Shown here piece by piece: positions 3,997 through 20,467 of a stretch of 40,004 bases of DNA. Position numbers and translations under genes: made by a program. The notes below the pieces were generated by a model. That model saw nothing but the letters and a program-made list of their open reading frames with translations, was not told where the DNA came from and did not search any database. Position 1 is the first letter of the stretch. Each line of letters starts with the position of its first letter. This DNA is from a virus: IMG/VR virus record IMGVR_UViG_3300032215_000333, positions 1-40,004 of that record; one strand, written 5' to 3'.

Positions 3997-4542
3997 ATGA
4001 AAACAATAGGCGATAAATTAACCAGTTTTGCAGTTACTGGAGTAAAACCTGGTGCATTGACACCAGACAATGCATTTGAAACAATCACAGAAAAAAGTTT
4101 TGAAGGTAAATGGAAAATCATCGTTTACTATCCAAAGGACTTTACATTCGTATGTCCAACAGAAATCGTAGCATATGATGCACTACGCAGTCAATTTGAA
4201 GACCGTGATGCTGTCTTATTAATTGGTTCAACAGACAACGAGTTCTGTAAACTAGCATGGCGTAATGCACACGAAGATTTAAAGAAAACAAACTCATGGA
4301 GTTTTGCTGACGTTGCACGTGGTGAACTATCACTAGCAAATCAATTGGGTATTTTCTTTGAACCAGCTGGTGCCGCATTACGTGCAACATTTATTGTTGA
4401 CCCCGATAACACAATTCAACACGTTACAGTAAACAACTTAGATGTTGGTCGTAATCCAGATGAAGCATTGCGTGTACTAGATGCATTGCAAACTGGTGAA
4501 CTGTGCCCTTGTAGTCGTCCAATCGGTGGCGACACATTATGA
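3997..4542 (+). CDS. ahpC: Peroxiredoxin AhpC
   Basis: A 181-residue typical 2-Cys peroxiredoxin. The peroxidatic cysteine is Cys53 in FTFVCPTE, and the C-terminus holds CPC (170-172) with the resolving cysteine. Such enzymes reduce hydrogen and alkyl peroxides and need a thiol reductant. The genome supplies an AhpD homologue 391 nt downstream, the reductant used with AhpC in mycobacteria, which suggests a self-contained peroxide defence. Preceded by CAGGAG and an ATAAATA element; overlaps the next gene by 4 nt. Confidence 0.95.
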   Translation: MKTIGDKLTSFAVTGVKPGALTPDNAFETITEKSFEGKWKIIVYYPKDFTFVCPTEIVAYDALRSQFEDRDAVLLIGSTDNEFCKLAWRNAHEDLKKTNSWSFADVARGELSLANQLGIFFEPAGAALRATFIVDPDNTIQHVTVNNLDVGRNPDEALRVLDALQTGELCPCSRPIGGDTL

Positions 4543-4937
4543 TTGATTGCTTGATACTTGGAGATAGCATTGCAGTAGGAACACATCAGTTTAAACAAGA
4601 ATGTGTTGCCTATGCCAAAGGGGGAATCAATAGTAAACAGTTTTTAGATAAGAATATAACCAACTCACCGTTTGTTGCAAATACGGTAATTATTAGCTTG
4701 GGTAGTAATGACCACCAGTATGTCAAGACAGAAGATGAGTTGCGTACTCTTAGAAAATTAACTAAGGCAGACAGAGTTTATTGGATATTACCTGCAATTA
4801 AACCTAATATACAAGAAATTGTTAAAAAGGTAGCAAGTGAAAACAACGATATAGTGTTACCCATTAAAAGCCTACAACCAGACAAAATTCATCCTAGTTG
4901 GGCAGGGTACAAAGATTTAGCAAAGGAAGCAAAATGA
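4539..4937 (+). CDS. Small SGNH/GDSL-like hydrolase
   Basis: A 132-residue protein with the three diagnostic blocks of SGNH hydrolases in order: ILGDSIAVG (block I, candidate Ser10), SLGSNDHQ (block III, Asn) and DKIHPSWAGY near the C-terminus (Asp-x-x-His, block V). Members are esterases or lipases acting on acyl groups. It is shorter than most family members. Its position between ahpC and ahpD, overlapping both (ATGA at each end), suggests co-translation; a link to acyl peroxides is only an inference. Confidence 0.75.
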   Translation: MIDCLILGDSIAVGTHQFKQECVAYAKGGINSKQFLDKNITNSPFVANTVIISLGSNDHQYVKTEDELRTLRKLTKADRVYWILPAIKPNIQEIVKKVASENNDIVLPIKSLQPDKIHPSWAGYKDLAKEAK

Positions 4938-5512
4938 ATAATCCAAAAGATATTAACAGCGTTAACATGCCACCAATCAATGTTAACGGCAATTGGGTAG
5001 AAACAGTTAAGGAAGCTATTCCTGATTACTGCAAGGATATCAAATTGAATTTAGATACAATCATGACACGACATGGCTTAGACCCAGTTGATGCACATGC
5101 TTGTGCGTATGTTGCGGCTATTGCTAGCAACAACGGTGCTTTGGCATTTGAAATTGAAATGAACAGTCCGTTGTTCTCTGAGAGTTCAGATCCGGAACGC
5201 AACGCAATGAAGACCGCAGTTGCATTAATGGCAATGAATAACATCTATTATCCATTTGCAGAAATGACACAAGACCCTGACTTAAAGGGTCTTCCGCTCG
5301 GCTTACGTATGAATGCATATGCTAATCATGGCGGTGTAAGTAAAAAGAAATTTGAGATGTATGCATTAGCCGCAAGTATTATTGGTAAGTGTGAATTCTG
5401 TGTTAGGAATCACTATGATGCGCTTAAAAAAGAAGGCATGACTGTGCAACAACTACAGGCTGTTGGTAAAATTGCCGCAATCGTTAACGCTATAGGTAAA
5501 GTGGCATTGTAA
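4934..5512 (+). CDS. ahpD: AhpD-like alkyl hydroperoxidase/reductant
   Basis: A 192-residue all-helical protein with the AhpD core motif GKCEFCVRNHYDAL (Cys153, Cys156 and His160), the CxxC...H dithiol centre that reduces AhpC. An upstream half resembles the second repeat of the AhpD fold (DAHACAYVAAIASNNGALAFEI). Start chosen at 4934, which overlaps the previous stop; the frame opens earlier at 4898 but inside the SGNH gene. AhpC and AhpD on one transcript form a plausible redox pair. Confidence 0.9.
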   Translation: MNNPKDINSVNMPPINVNGNWVETVKEAIPDYCKDIKLNLDTIMTRHGLDPVDAHACAYVAAIASNNGALAFEIEMNSPLFSESSDPERNAMKTAVALMAMNNIYYPFAEMTQDPDLKGLPLGLRMNAYANHGGVSKKKFEMYALAASIIGKCEFCVRNHYDALKKEGMTVQQLQAVGKIAAIVNAIGKVAL

Positions 5513-12216: not shown

Positions 12217-12224
12217 TATTTATG
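12217..12224 (-). promoter_or_regulatory. T4-late-like promoter directly at a start codon
   Basis: CATAAATA, then CAAT, then the ATG at 12212 on the minus strand. Overlaps the first base of tRNA-Leu (CAA). Confidence 0.45.
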
Positions 12225-12301
12225 CCCCCGTGGACAAATTGGCAAAGTCGTTTCTCTCAAAAGGAAAAGTTTTCTCCGTTCAACTCGGAGCGGGGGTACC
12301 A
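12224..12301 (+). tRNA. tRNA-Leu (CAA), atypical short variable region
   Basis: Acceptor GCCCCCG/CGGGGGT with G1-U72 as in some tRNA-Leu, D-arm GAC...GTC, anticodon loop CTCAAAA, T-arm CTCCG/CGGAG, encoded CCA. Only about 6 nt lie between anticodon and T stems, whereas tRNA-Leu normally has a long variable arm, so the isotype follows from the anticodon only. Confidence 0.75.
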
Positions 12302-12305
12302 GTAT

Positions 12306-12534
12306 TTCAACATCCGACCTAACGCTGGAAACAGAGGAAGTTCGGGACTTGTGGCAAGTGCGAGTGGGAGAAATTTACTTTGTTATTTGTCTGAAATTTA
12401 CTTTGTTATTTCGTTAAACCACCGTGATACAACAAGCAACACAAACAGAATCAGGCAACACTTGCGCTATTGATTTGGGTTGTGGCAAAGATTAATGTTA
12501 GGATAGAACAGAATCCCGGCTACGGGGTGTTGAA
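12306..12534 (+). ncRNA. rnpB: Miniature RNase P RNA candidate
   Basis: The two universally conserved halves of the RNase P catalytic core are present in the right order. 5' side: GAGGAAGTTCGGGA (12334-12347; bacterial consensus GAGGAAAGUCCGGGC). 3' side: AGAACAGAATCCCGGCTA (12505-12522; consensus AGACAGAAYCCGGCUUA). They pair as P4 (AAGTTCGGGA with TCCCGGCTA), keeping the single bulged U that is invariant in P4. Flanking helices also form: P1 TTCAACATCC (12306-12315) with GGGTGTTGAA (12525-12534); P2 CCTAAC (12318-12323) with GTTAGG (12497-12502); P3 reduced to CTG-GAAA-CAG (12325-12334). Inside, GCAAGTG (12354-12360) pairs with CACTTGC (12459-12465). At about 229 nt it is much smaller than the usual 350-400 nt; much of the specificity domain is missing or replaced by a tandem repeat. 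RNase P cleaves the 5' leader from pre-tRNA, fitting a position among 30 tRNA-type genes. Confidence 0.78.
12370..12411 (+). repeat. Tandem 19-nt repeat inside the RNase P RNA candidate
   Basis: GAAATTTACTTTGTTATTT occurs at 12370-12388 and again at 12393-12411, separated by 4 nt. It lies in the peripheral part of the RNA, not in the P1-P4 core. Confidence 0.85.
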
Positions 12535-12538
12535 TATT

Positions 12539-12630
12539 GCCAGCGAGACTTGATAGTCAGAGAGGTCTTATAAGCCTTTTAGCGCCAGATTAGCGTTCTT
12601 GAGTGGGTTTGATTCCCACCGCTGGTACCA
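12539..12630 (+). tRNA. Aberrant type II tRNA-like element, isotype unclear
   Basis: Acceptor GCCAGCG/CGCTGGT with encoded CCA and a 5-bp T stem GTGGG/CCCAC are clear, and a long variable-arm-like segment is present. The rest is abnormal: the T-loop is TTTGATT with U replacing the near-universal C56, and the candidate D-arm GACT-TGAT-AGTC has a 4-nt loop without GG, so the G19-C56 contact is lost on both sides. The best anticodon loop is CTTATAA (TAT) in a weak stem. It starts 4 nt after the RNase P RNA candidate. It may be degenerate, or a processing signal rather than a decoding tRNA. Confidence 0.5.
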
Positions 12631-12637
12631 ATTTTAT

Positions 12638-12714
12638 GGTGACTGTAGCTCAGTCGGTAGAGTCCCGGATTGTGATTCCGGTTGTCGGGAGTTCGAGCCT
12701 CCTCAGTCACCCCA
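12638..12714 (+). tRNA. tRNA-His (GTG)
   Basis: Eight-bp acceptor with the His-specific extra G(-1) opposite C73 (GGTGACTG/CAGTCACC), anticodon loop TTGTGAT, encoded CCA. Confidence 0.95.
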
Positions 12715-12769: not shown

Positions 12770-13102
12770 ATGGAACTAGTATTTAAAAAATATACATTAA
12801 TAACATATGTAGACTGGGTGCAAAATCCCGACAATGGTAATAATGTACCGGATAATGTACGACAATATACCGCTGCCAATGAATCATATCGAAGTGAGGC
12901 TCAAAAAAATAATGAAACACATCCATATTGTGGCTTTGATTTTGAAAATCAACAAGTAACAAGATATTGGAAAACTCAAGAAGCCGCAGAAGCGTATAAG
13001 GAAGTAGTACTAGCCAATGCACAAAAATTTAATATTAATATTAAAAGTTTAGAAATTTTAGACAATACTGATTGGGATCCGTCTAAAATCGTTAAAGTTT
13101 AA
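12770..13102 (+). CDS. Tandem paralogue family member 1, unknown function
   Basis: A 110-residue protein starting LVFKKYTLITYVDW, with the family core RYWKTQEAAEAYKEVVLANAQKF followed by NINIKSLEILDN. ACAGGAG (12752 onward) precedes ATG 12770; the frame is open upstream through tRNA-His but that part is not coding. The four neighbours in this family share a beta-strand-like start, an aromatic-x-T-x-E-x-A-E helix and an I-x-D-N end. No known function. Confidence 0.8.
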   Translation: MELVFKKYTLITYVDWVQNPDNGNNVPDNVRQYTAANESYRSEAQKNNETHPYCGFDFENQQVTRYWKTQEAAEAYKEVVLANAQKFNINIKSLEILDNTDWDPSKIVKV

Positions 13103-13116
13103 AAAGGTATTAAATA

Positions 13117-13446
13117 ATGACACTTAAATACACAAAATATATGGTAATATCATATAATGTATCTAAACAATTTCAAGATTTTACTGACAACGAAATTGCA
13201 TATACAAACGCTAATAAAGAAGAACGTTTAAAACATGTAAATTCGGGAGATACTCATCATGATGAGGTTATTCCATTGGAAGTACTGTATGATAATGAAA
13301 ATGGAAAAGTAAAAAGATATTTTACGACACTAGAGGCAGCAGAATCATATAAAGCAACCGTGATTGCTAACGCACAAAAATACAATGTTGGATTAAAAAG
13401 TGTAGACATTTTTGATAATGATAAAGATCCAGATATTATTTTATAA
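13117..13446 (+). CDS. Tandem paralogue family member 2, unknown function
   Basis: A 109-residue protein: KYTKYMVISYNVSKQFQDFT at the N-terminus, family core VKRYFTTLEAAESYKATVIA, then NAQKYNVGLKSVDIFDNDKD. Thirteen nt after member 1 with AAAAGG in the gap, so probably on the same transcript. The core aligns residue by residue with members 1 and 3. Confidence 0.8.
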   Translation: MTLKYTKYMVISYNVSKQFQDFTDNEIAYTNANKEERLKHVNSGDTHHDEVIPLEVLYDNENGKVKRYFTTLEAAESYKATVIANAQKYNVGLKSVDIFDNDKDPDIIL

Positions 13447-13470
13447 AATAATTTATTGTTAATTAACGTT

Positions 13471-13478
13471 TATAAATA
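13471..13478 (+). promoter_or_regulatory. T4-type late promoter, exact octamer
   Basis: TATAAATA identical to the T4 late consensus, 20 nt before ATG 13499, with ACGGAGA in the leader. Supplies paralogues 3 and 4. Confidence 0.6.
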
Positions 13479-13498
13479 TGTCTACGGAGATATGACAC

Positions 13499-13897
13499 AT
13501 GGAACTAACATATAAAAAATACGGATTGGTAGTTTTTGCTAATCCCACAAAAGAATTAACAAAAAATCAAATAGCATTCATGATGGATAACATGGAAAAA
13601 CTTCAAGTATTCATCGACGCCAAAGAAACACCAAATAACTTAATTCCCACACTTGACGGTCCTGGTCGTGTAAAGAAATACTTTACTACGCAAGAATCTG
13701 CTGAGGCGTGGAAGATTTCTATGTTAGCTAATGGTGAAAAACATGATGTGGGAATTTCTAGTTTAGAAATTTTTGACAATGATGTAGATCCCGTATTGCC
13801 CCCTCTAGAGGCAATGCAAAAATTCAATGCAATGTTAATATCAAATGCAAATAAATTTGATGTTGCCGTTCCTGATGTAGCTTGTTTAAAAGTCTAA
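13499..13897 (+). CDS. Tandem paralogue family member 3, unknown function
   Basis: A 132-residue protein: LTYKKYGLVVFANPTKELTK, then core VKKYFTTQESAEAWKISMLA and HDVGISSLEIFDNDVDP. It carries an extra 30 residues at the C-terminus that partly repeat the NANKFDV segment of the core (MLISNANKFDVAVPDV), as if a fragment of the family unit were duplicated. Exact T4 late octamer and ACGGAGA upstream. Confidence 0.8.
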   Translation: MELTYKKYGLVVFANPTKELTKNQIAFMMDNMEKLQVFIDAKETPNNLIPTLDGPGRVKKYFTTQESAEAWKISMLANGEKHDVGISSLEIFDNDVDPVLPPLEAMQKFNAMLISNANKFDVAVPDVACLKV

Positions 13898-14184
13898 TGT
13901 ATACTAAATACACCGTTGTTACTTTTGCTAATCCAAAAGAATCTTTTGCCGACTGGAGTGATGCTGAAATTGATTTTATAAATGATGCTTTTGAAAAAGC
14001 AGTATTACTTACTAGTCAAGGAAAAACACCAGGCTACCATGAACCAGTGGGTCTTGGTCAAGTTAAAAGATTATGGATAAATCTAGAGGCTGCTGAAGAA
14101 TGGAAACAATTTATATTTGACAATGCAGTTAAGCATAGTATATCCATAGATAATATTAAAATTTTTGATAATTTGGATTCTTAG
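13897..14184 (+). CDS. Tandem paralogue family member 4; stop codon lies inside tRNA-Arg (CCG)
   Basis: A 95-residue protein: MYTKYTVVTFANPKESFADW, core VKRLWINLEAAEEWKQFIFD, then NIKIFDNLDS. It starts on TAATG shared with member 3. Its last codons (GGA-TTC-TTAG in the DNA) are the first bases of the next tRNA: the TAG stop at 14182-14184 is tRNA nucleotides 8-10. Cutting at the tRNA 5' end would leave the mRNA without a stop codon. Confidence 0.8.
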   Translation: MYTKYTVVTFANPKESFADWSDAEIDFINDAFEKAVLLTSQGKTPGYHEPVGLGQVKRLWINLEAAEEWKQFIFDNAVKHSISIDNIKIFDNLDS

Positions 14185-16207: not shown

Positions 16208-16284
16208 GGGCCCTTAGCTCATTCGGTTAGAGCAGTGGACTCATAATCCATTGGTGGTGTGTTCGAATCACACAGGGCCCACCA
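16208..16284 (+). tRNA. tRNA with CAT anticodon, probably Ile2
   Basis: Acceptor GGGCCCT/AGGGCCC, anticodon loop CTCATAA, encoded CCA. The acceptor and TTAGCTCA start resemble bacterial tRNA-Ile2, whose C34 becomes lysidine and reads ATA. Elongator Met is the alternative. Confidence 0.85.
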
Positions 16285-17313: not shown

Positions 17314-17387
17314 GCGGGGTTCGTATAGTGGTAATACCTTAGCCTTCCAAGCTAATGCTGAGAGTTCGATTCTCTTACCCCGCTCCA
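17314..17387 (+). tRNA. tRNA-Gly (TCC)
   Basis: Acceptor GCGGGGT/ACCCCGC, anticodon stem TTAGC/GCTAA with loop CTTCCAA, discriminator U as in bacterial tRNA-Gly, encoded CCA. Confidence 0.95.
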
Positions 17388-17389
17388 CT

Positions 17390-17397
17390 GATAAATA
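17390..17397 (+). promoter_or_regulatory. T4-late-like promoter element
   Basis: GATAAATA, 8 nt before ATG 17406; leader would be very short and has no ribosome site. Confidence 0.4.
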
Positions 17398-17405
17398 AAA
17401 ATATC

Positions 17406-18041
17406 ATGCAAACAATAACAGTTAATAGCGTAAATATAGATATCCACGAAGGTCCAATTGGAGTTAGTGTAAGCGGTGGTGCTGATAGTGCAATTTTATT
17501 ATATATACTAATGAAACACGCACCGGGCCCAATCCATGTATATACATGCGTTGGTAAATCAAAGAATAGAGTAGCACCGCATGTTGTATCTAATTTGATT
17601 GGTAAATTGATTGATATGACCGGTAGAAAAGATAATGAAATTTTTCATCACTGTTCATTTGTAGATGACCAGCATATTACTAACATGTTTGTTTTACCTA
17701 GAGATAATCTTAATAATGGTATTATTAATTACATGTATACTGGTACAACAGCGAATCCCCCGGTAAATGTCACCGATGATTTTTTTGGAGACAACTTTAC
17801 ACATAATGAACGTAATCCTGAGGTAATAAGACCCTATTATAAAAGTAGAGACAATAAATTTTATGTGCCGTTTATAAACGTAGACAAACAAGTTATACGC
17901 GGTATGTATGAAGAATTAAATGTACTAGAAGAATTATTTCCATTGACACGTTCCTGTGAAAGTTTTACATTAACTGAAGGGCATTGCGGTGAATGCTGGT
18001 GGTGTCAAGAAAGGCACTGGGGATTTGGTAGGCTCTTTTAA
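17406..18041 (+). CDS. PP-loop ATPase, QueC-like
   Basis: A 211-residue protein with the PP-loop motif SGGADS (23-28) after a beta-strand, which binds ATP pyrophosphate, and a C-terminal zinc-type cluster CGECWWCQERHWGFGR preceded by SCESF. The SC..CGxCxxC..R..GF layout is that of QueC/ExsB 7-cyano-7-deazaguanine synthases. No folE, queD or queE homologue is in the window, so it may belong to a 7-deazaguanine pathway encoded elsewhere or act on another carboxylate. Start at 17406 since upstream frame is tRNA-Gly. Confidence 0.75.
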   Translation: MQTITVNSVNIDIHEGPIGVSVSGGADSAILLYILMKHAPGPIHVYTCVGKSKNRVAPHVVSNLIGKLIDMTGRKDNEIFHHCSFVDDQHITNMFVLPRDNLNNGIINYMYTGTTANPPVNVTDDFFGDNFTHNERNPEVIRPYYKSRDNKFYVPFINVDKQVIRGMYEELNVLEELFPLTRSCESFTLTEGHCGECWWCQERHWGFGRLF

Positions 18042-20185: not shown

Positions 20186-20467
20186 ATGTCATCAATATCA
20201 TCTAGATACACAAGCGAAAAAGCAGTAGACAAAGTAGGTAACAGATTTGATTTAGTTCTCATCGCATCATTGAGGGTCAGAGAATTAACTACAGGTCATA
20301 GAACCAAGTTAACTGACCTTGGCACGAATAAAGATGACATGCCTAAACCAATGACAATCGCTTTGAGAGAAATTGAAGAAGGTTTAGTTGGTAGAGAATA
20401 TCTAGAACGCTATCGTAATAGTGACCGACAACGTAAGAAAAATTCTGACCGCTATACAGATTTGTAA
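20186..20467 (+). CDS. rpoZ: RNA polymerase omega subunit homologue
   Basis: A 93-residue protein that follows the bacterial RpoZ sequence: the N-terminal TSEKAVDKVGNRFDLVLIAS matches the conserved V-E-K-I-G-N-R-F-D-L-V-L-V-A block, then an R-x-R-E-L-x-x-G turn, and PMTIALREIEEGLVG matches the conserved T-V-I-A-L-R-E-I-E-E-G-L. Omega binds the C-terminal region of beta-prime, helps assemble RNA polymerase and forms part of a ppGpp site in proteobacteria. The C-terminus differs (basic, RQRKKNSDR). AAAGGAAA precedes the start. A phage copy could replace host omega. Confidence 0.93.
   Translation: MSSISSRYTSEKAVDKVGNRFDLVLIASLRVRELTTGHRTKLTDLGTNKDDMPKPMTIALREIEEGLVGREYLERYRNSDRQRKKNSDRYTDL

Follow-up and report, generated by a model that had tools for sequence, protein, structure and literature searches.

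A phage tRNA with a UAU anticodon, an extra-arm hairpin and an A19–U56 elbow pair beside an RNase P-like RNA

INTRODUCTION

In nearly all tRNAs the elbow pair between positions 19 and 56 is G–C. tRNA-Sec (RF01852) is known for a short D-loop, an anticodon stem of at least 6 bp and a long extra arm. Isoleucine tRNAs with a UAU anticodon occur in bacteria: tRNA-Ile3(UAU) is described in Bifidobacterium, Mycoplasma and Neorickettsia in the available part of PMC8450103, and a redundant UAU tRNA-Ile of Lactobacillus plantarum is named by a title among the references of PMC9976931. According to the available part of PMC7609411, the metagenomic allo-tRNAs, with 8/4 or 9/3 cloverleaves, have a long extra arm and commonly a UAU anticodon, while tRNA-Pyl has a short D-loop without GG, no C56 and a lengthened anticodon stem. 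In yeast mitochondria the RNase P RNA RPM1 shares a transcription unit with tRNA-fMet and tRNA-Pro and is further cut internally (excerpt of PMC3797045). Phages also encode tRNAs that differ from those of the host and evade host tRNA-targeting defences; the changes described in the accessible parts of PMC10264068 and PMC11555353 concern the anticodon loop or expression.

Here we describe a tRNA gene in a 40,004-base viral record, which we call the window (the whole stretch of DNA that was analysed). Like the bacterial tRNA-Ile(UAU) it carries the anticodon UAU and presumably decodes AUA. In contrast to that tRNA, which replaces or accompanies tRNA-Ile2(CAU) in cells, it is encoded by a phage, and it has an extra-arm hairpin and a short D-arm, both absent from the available descriptions of bacterial tRNA-Ile(UAU). 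It shares the long extra arm, the UAU anticodon and a metagenomic origin with the allo-tRNAs, and the features listed above with tRNA-Sec and tRNA-Pyl. As with RPM1, an RNase P-like RNA lies among tRNA genes, so that the yeast case, although organellar, offers a precedent for tRNA punctuation. Like the defence-evading phage tRNAs it is phage-encoded and differs from the host's, but its change is in the elbow.

RESULTS

ARAGORN finds 30 tRNAs in the window. It calls tRNA-Ile(tat) with boundaries at exactly 12539 and 12630 (plus strand, as are all features of this locus given below), and this tRNA gene, with its encoded CCA, is also delimited by its fold and by a family alignment (A1). The minimum-energy fold is a full cloverleaf with a 7-bp acceptor stem, a D-stem of 4 bp capped by the 4-nt loop UGAU, a 7-bp anticodon stem, a 5-bp extra-arm hairpin and a 5-bp T-stem, followed by ACCA; its stability (z = -4.2) was reached by none of 200 shuffles. 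An earlier note on this DNA had recognised the acceptor stem, the T stem and the CCA, all of which are in the fold. In the family alignment the 5' strand of the acceptor stem (12539..12545) pairs with 12620-12626, and the first pair is G-U. The short D-arm (12547..12558) consists of GACT, the loop TGAT and AGTC, with A at position 19 (12553). The anticodon loop CTTATAA (12567..12573, ARAGORN) presents UAU at 12569-12571. The 17-nt extra-arm hairpin (12581..12597) has a covarying stem and the loop CAGATTA (12586-12592), which contains GAU, and the T-arm (12603..12619) has the loop TTTGATT with T at position 56 (12610). The same note was also right that C56 and a D-loop GG are missing: the T-loop UUUGAUU has U56 and the D-loop has GA. 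The Rfam tRNA model gave no match to 12539-12630, and the tRNA-Sec model reached 31.8 bits, under its cut-off of 47.

The note had treated the element as an aberrant one-off, whereas we found more than 100 relatives. A search pattern that allowed either purine at position 19 of the D-arm and left the T-loop and the extra arm unspecified matched at least 120 stretches. With all loci included, at least 124 places gave 117 parsed tRNAs with 76 unique sequences; seven of the 124 places were left out, three because they were cut by locus ends and four because the pairing 3' half was missing. Members share acceptor and T-stems of 7 and 5 bp (in A1, columns 1-7 pair with 82-88 and 65-69 with 77-81). 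Their D-stem of 4 bp closes a 4-nt loop, the anticodon stem has 7 bp, and the variable region forms a hairpin; some members of the UAU family have an ordinary D-arm. Among the matches listed, 99.7% of the 2170 cells of A1 are paired, both partners vary in 16 of 29 pairs, and none of 500 shuffles scored as high. All seven pairs of the acceptor stem are kept across the 76 unique sequences among the matches listed, four of them with changes on both sides, and the stem of the extra-arm hairpin covaries as well. The invariance of the D-stem is uninformative because the search pattern fixed it.

Could the loss of GG and C56 be decay of a pseudo-tRNA in a redundant array? The window does hold a CAU tRNA of the Ile2 type, with which the element would be redundant, and the Rfam tRNA matches omit the element. 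In contrast, all stems are perfect and covary, the CCA is kept, the fold is stable (z of -4.2) and, in the four cases among the matches listed in which the elbow bases changed, they changed jointly to a Watson–Crick pair (4/4). Decay is thus rejected on covariation, and we regard it as highly unlikely. A complete covarying cloverleaf with CCA is what a functional tRNA has, and these sequence comparisons identify 12539-12630 as a genuine phage tRNA whose kind is widespread but unusual.

The anticodon is UAU in all 76 unique members among the matches listed; likewise A37 and A73 are each present in 76 of 76 among these matches, and base 38 is not A in 17 of 76. The conservation of the extra-arm loop was first noticed in loci whose search pattern included that loop, and it was therefore recounted on loci fetched with a pattern omitting it: of 73 unique members among the matches listed, 70 carry CAGATTAG in the extra arm. 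GAT is contained in this loop in 76 of 76, again among the matches listed. Named phages matched by blast of the element and two relatives infect, by their names, Synechococcus, Sinorhizobium, Pectobacterium, Vibrio, Escherichia, Klebsiella and Lactobacillus, and the 13 of 14 such loci that could be parsed (L301 could not) all have UAU together with GAT in the extra arm. A two-loop pattern applied to bacterial genomes gave 16 stretches, of which all except L255 parse as tRNAs and 11 are called tRNA-Ile(tat) by ARAGORN; these members include several Acidobacteria tRNA arrays, Nostoc and Armatimonadetes, and some of these assembled stretches may derive from phages or other mobile DNA. As judged from these matches, the UAU family occurs in unrelated phages and in some bacterial tRNA arrays, usually without an RNase P RNA.

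We then compared the two sides of the elbow across the family. The note had concluded that the elbow contact was lost on both sides; instead, A19–U56 stands in its place. Among the matches listed, positions 19 and 56 are G and C in 72 of the 76 unique members and A and U in four, with no mixed case, so the column pair is a standard one in 76 of 76 by pair count; within the family, again among the matches listed, G18G19 goes with C56 in the 72 and G18A19 with U56 in the four. The latter are the window tRNA, L131, L171 and L203. The close relatives L025 and L030 have G19–C56, and the window tRNA differs from its neighbour L025 only by the switch at 19 and 56 and by one D-loop base. Because the two positions change together and these relatives keep G19–C56, the elbow contact of the window tRNA was exchanged, not lost, and the alignment indicates that an A19–U56 Watson–Crick pair replaces the near-universal G19–C56. 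The four A19–U56 members share much sequence, and therefore they may go back to only one or two events.

To place this exchange among other tRNAs we surveyed the collected loci, where 2360 ARAGORN calls gave 2015 unique and 1779 parsed tRNAs. Of these, 1723 have UU at 54-55 together with A58, and in 34 of the 1723 base 56 is not C; D-loops were delimited for 1707 phage or array tRNAs (34 non-C56 and 1673 C56). In all 34 of the non-C56 tRNAs the D-loop holds G followed by the Watson–Crick partner of base 56, a dinucleotide test that leaves the position within the loop unfixed: GA accompanies U56 in 27 of 27 tRNAs, GC is found with every G56 (4 of 4) and GT with every A56 (3 of 3). GG is found in the D-loop of 2 of the 34, against 1580 of the 1673 C56 tRNAs; as background, GA is present in 649 of the 1673 C56 D-loops. 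The 34 form 22 clusters at 75% identity and, with the UAU family removed, the non-C56 tRNAs cover 16 anticodons and 23 loci. Under a stricter reading, in which positions 18-19 were taken from alignment to canonical relatives, GA remained in 22 of 27 U56 tRNAs, GC in 3 of 4 G56 tRNAs and GT in 0 of 3 A56 tRNAs. The same alignment reading gave eight C56 tRNAs without GG, so the complementarity between base 56 and its partner is not absolute. Five named-phage stretches hold 98 tRNAs, of which 82 could be parsed; the sole U56 tRNA among these, tRNA-Thr(cgt) of the isolated phage Phosso, has GA. The comparison thus argues for elbow exchange beyond the UAU family, strongly for A–U and more weakly for C–G and U–A, with exceptions.

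What would such a tRNA decode? In 33 window ORFs, 197 of the 7276 codons are AUA, which is 40% of the isoleucine codons. The anticodon UAU in the loop CTTATAA, A37 and A73 are those of a tRNA-Ile, and A73 and A37 agree with isoleucine identity as given in the available part of PMC9976931. Depositors annotated the tRNA as tRNA-Ile in Phosso, PhiM1, WD615, 12VC501, ENFP1 and PCEc3. AUA and AGA codons are rare in E. coli, and in four coliphage or Klebsiella phage records a family member follows a tRNA-Arg (annotated tct in two of them). Sequence features therefore make it most likely that the UAU tRNA reads AUA as isoleucine. This decoding would be redundant, because the window also has a CAU tRNA (16208-16284) that we take to be an ordinary AUA-reading tRNA-Ile2.

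A long extra arm otherwise marks leucine, serine and tyrosine tRNAs, and here it counts against a plain isoleucine reading. The tRNA could instead be a missense or suppressor tRNA, with the extra arm allowing it to be charged by seryl- or leucyl-tRNA synthetase, so that AUA would partly be read as serine or leucine. Besides the arm itself, this alternative draws on tRNA-Sec as the best Rfam match (31.8 bits) and on A73, which also fits leucine. UAU is, moreover, a predominant anticodon among the 8/4 allo-tRNAs in the available text of PMC7609411. On the other hand, the stems are 7/5, neither 8/4 nor 9/3; A73 is invariant in the 76 members among the matches listed, whereas bacterial serine tRNAs have G73; and wholesale misreading would be costly because AUA accounts for 40% of isoleucine codons. 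We consider this alternative unlikely. Allo-tRNAs are known from phages too, but assignment to them was rejected on the 7-bp acceptor stem, the 5-bp T-stem and A73. Similarly, tRNA-Sec was rejected on the UAU anticodon (not UCA), the 4-bp instead of 6-bp D-stem, the 7/5 stems and the score of 31.8 against 47 bits, and tRNA-Pyl on UAU instead of CUA, a 17-nt hairpin instead of a 3-nt variable loop and the A–U elbow, which is kept.

GAU, the anticodon of ordinary tRNA-Ile, sits at the place of bases 34-36 in the 7-nt extra-arm loop CAGAUUA, and the PhiM1-type loop CAGAUAA equals the tRNA-Ile(GAU) loop YUGAUAA except at base 33 (with any pyrimidine at base 32). The hairpin might be a second, non-decoding anticodon arm, yet this is a quite improbable proposal, against which the geometry argues.

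Upstream of the UAU tRNA, tRNA-Leu(caa) (12224..12301, ARAGORN) ends with its CCA at 12301 and is followed by GTAT and, from 12306, by P1 of an RNase P-like RNA (12306..12534). P1 ends at 12534, and after TATT the UAU tRNA starts at 12539; the next gene of the array is tRNA-His(gtg) (12639..12714, ARAGORN). Both 4-nt spacings given in the note, between the tRNA-Leu CCA and the RNA and between the extended P1 and the element, are therefore those of the coordinates. The variable loop of this tRNA-Leu is short and the gene scores under the Rfam tRNA cut-off; leucine tRNAs normally have a long variable loop.

The RNase P-like RNA was recognised by covariation of P1, an extended helix (12306-12315/12525-12534), and by a pair count over seven helices, among them P4 with a bulged U (12339-12347/12514-12521). 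P1, P2, P3, P4 with the bulged U and CR-I/CR-V are all found in 12306-12534, where the helix and motif names are our own assignments from general knowledge. In an alignment of 11 sequences (A2), 98.6% of the cells of the seven helices pair and in 25 of 45 pairs both partners vary, counts that include L003, the P1 ends of which were badly delimited; none of 500 shuffles scored as high, slid versions paired at most 40.2%, and P4 does not vary. A further alignment with L028 (A3) was left out of the counts. A pattern for the 3' conserved segment matched 32 viral stretches, many of which also contain the 5' conserved segment and show covariation in P1; other matches of this pattern were chance ones in coding sequence. 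Starting from 55 CR-I places and leaving out the 23 without CR-V within 420 nt, we delimited 32 RNAs of 195-438 nt (the window and 31 others). Rfam gave nothing at E<=10 for the window RNA, and blastn of it against named phages gave no match. Of 16 relatives searched at the gathering threshold, Rfam matched one, L019, with RNaseP_bact_a at 189 bits; this RNA lies between tRNAs on a 332-kb contig and has CR-I/CR-V in common with the window RNA. Because of the covariation and the L019 match, phages do carry RNase P RNAs, and on this comparative evidence the RNase P-like RNA at 12306-12534 is real. At L005:341-682(-), and likewise near 655(+) of L013, the phage RNase P RNA encloses a tRNA-like piece (GGGGCAT...ATGTTCCACCA) that has a T-arm and CCA; in L005 it is located between the 5' and 3' conserved segments, and in the L013 stretch the 5' segment was not seen. 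If the piece is cut, the ribozyme would be split.

The note proposed that the element is a self-processing signal. If RNase P cuts at 12538/12539 as predicted, the RNase P RNA would keep a tail of 4 nt at its 3' end; the predicted 3' maturation of the tRNA-Leu would give it a 4-nt 5' leader. A tRNA ends no more than 5 nt upstream of P1 in 15 of the 32 delimited phage RNase P-like RNAs, a tRNA starts no more than 10 nt downstream in 10 of 32, and both sides are so flanked in 7 of 32, with several near-copies among these RNAs; in these loci, 53 of 476 gaps from one tRNA to the next measure no more than 5 nt and 158 no more than 10 nt. The upstream tRNAs are Leu (caa, cag, taa, gag), His and Arg, and the downstream ones Ile (tat), Leu (aag, caa), Gly, Thr and Arg. 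Since phage RNase P RNAs are often closely flanked by tRNAs, tRNA maturation could set the ends of the RNA.

In its strong form the proposal makes cleavage by the neighbouring RNase P RNA the main purpose of the element: the ribozyme would thereby release itself. It gains from the 4-nt spacing on both sides and from the many phage RNase P RNAs that are closely flanked by tRNAs, but among the matches listed only 3 of the 117 family members have an RNase P RNA as neighbour (the window, L025 and L030, which form one clade), other phage RNase P RNAs have other tRNAs at the same place, and both the anticodon loop and the loop of the extra arm are conserved, although an element serving only as a cleavage site would have no need of this. 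RNase P conserved segments occur anywhere in the fetched stretch for at least 5 of the 117 members, the stretches being short. Thus the geometry of the proposal stands and the special role of this tRNA does not: a dedicated signal is quite unlikely as an explanation, and we conclude that the UAU tRNA is not one. Punctuation of phage RNase P RNA by tRNAs, as read from gene order, is plausible, recurrent and independent of the UAU tRNA, which in the window probably helps to cut out the RNase P RNA.

Several other features of these loci were observed. The window array contains a QueC-like protein (17355-18041; Pfam QueC 29.2 bits, PHROG 1550), and between tRNA genes at 12770-14184 four small consecutive ORFs have similar C-terminal parts, with no PHROG match for the first three and no Pfam match for the first two. 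The window also encodes a phage RNA polymerase omega/Rpb6-like subunit (20186-20467; Pfam RNA_pol_Rpb6, 50.8 bits) and, at 3997-5512, a peroxiredoxin (AhpC/TSA) near a carboxymuconolactone decarboxylase-family protein. Amber-reading tRNA(cta) genes lie at L002:6836-6910, L004:4321-4395 and L014:1747-1821 (-), the Pyl label coming from the anticodon only; the one in L002 has U56 together with GA in the D-loop.

DISCUSSION

Our reading, to which we give a probability of about 0.72, is that the element is a functional UAU tRNA with an A19–U56 elbow, which decodes AUA with isoleucine and is cotranscribed with the RNase P RNA and cut at its 5' end. We infer that a polycistronic tRNA transcript would hold both the UAU tRNA and the phage RNase P RNA. 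RNase P, of the host or the phage, would cut the 5' end of the UAU tRNA and with the same cut release the RNase P RNA on its 3' side; on the 5' side, maturation of the tRNA-Leu would release it. The matured UAU tRNA, once charged, would read AUA, a codon common in this phage, with isoleucine.

In the literature searched, with most subscription journals outside the search, we found no published description of an A19–U56 elbow, of UAU tRNAs with extra arms or of a phage RNase P RNA; the main text of the huge-phage paper PMC7162821 contains neither 'RNase P' nor 'ribonuclease P' nor 'rnpB'. A widespread phage UAU tRNA with a nearly invariant extra-arm loop escapes the Rfam tRNA model in the window, and for the phage RNase P RNAs a separate model would be worthwhile. 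These RNAs sit inside tRNA arrays, often framed by tRNAs, and a phage that carries one there may therefore supply the enzyme that matures its tRNAs and itself.

The variation of the 19–56 pair as A–U, and in a few cases apparently as C–G and U–A, is natural covariation evidence for the elbow contact, and suggests that Watson–Crick geometry is kept rather than base identity. If the second-anticodon reading were true, the extra arm would supply the isoleucine identity that bare UAU gives poorly, and phages would read AUA without the host lysidine enzyme TilS. The charging of the UAU tRNA could reveal such a TilS-independent way to read AUA.
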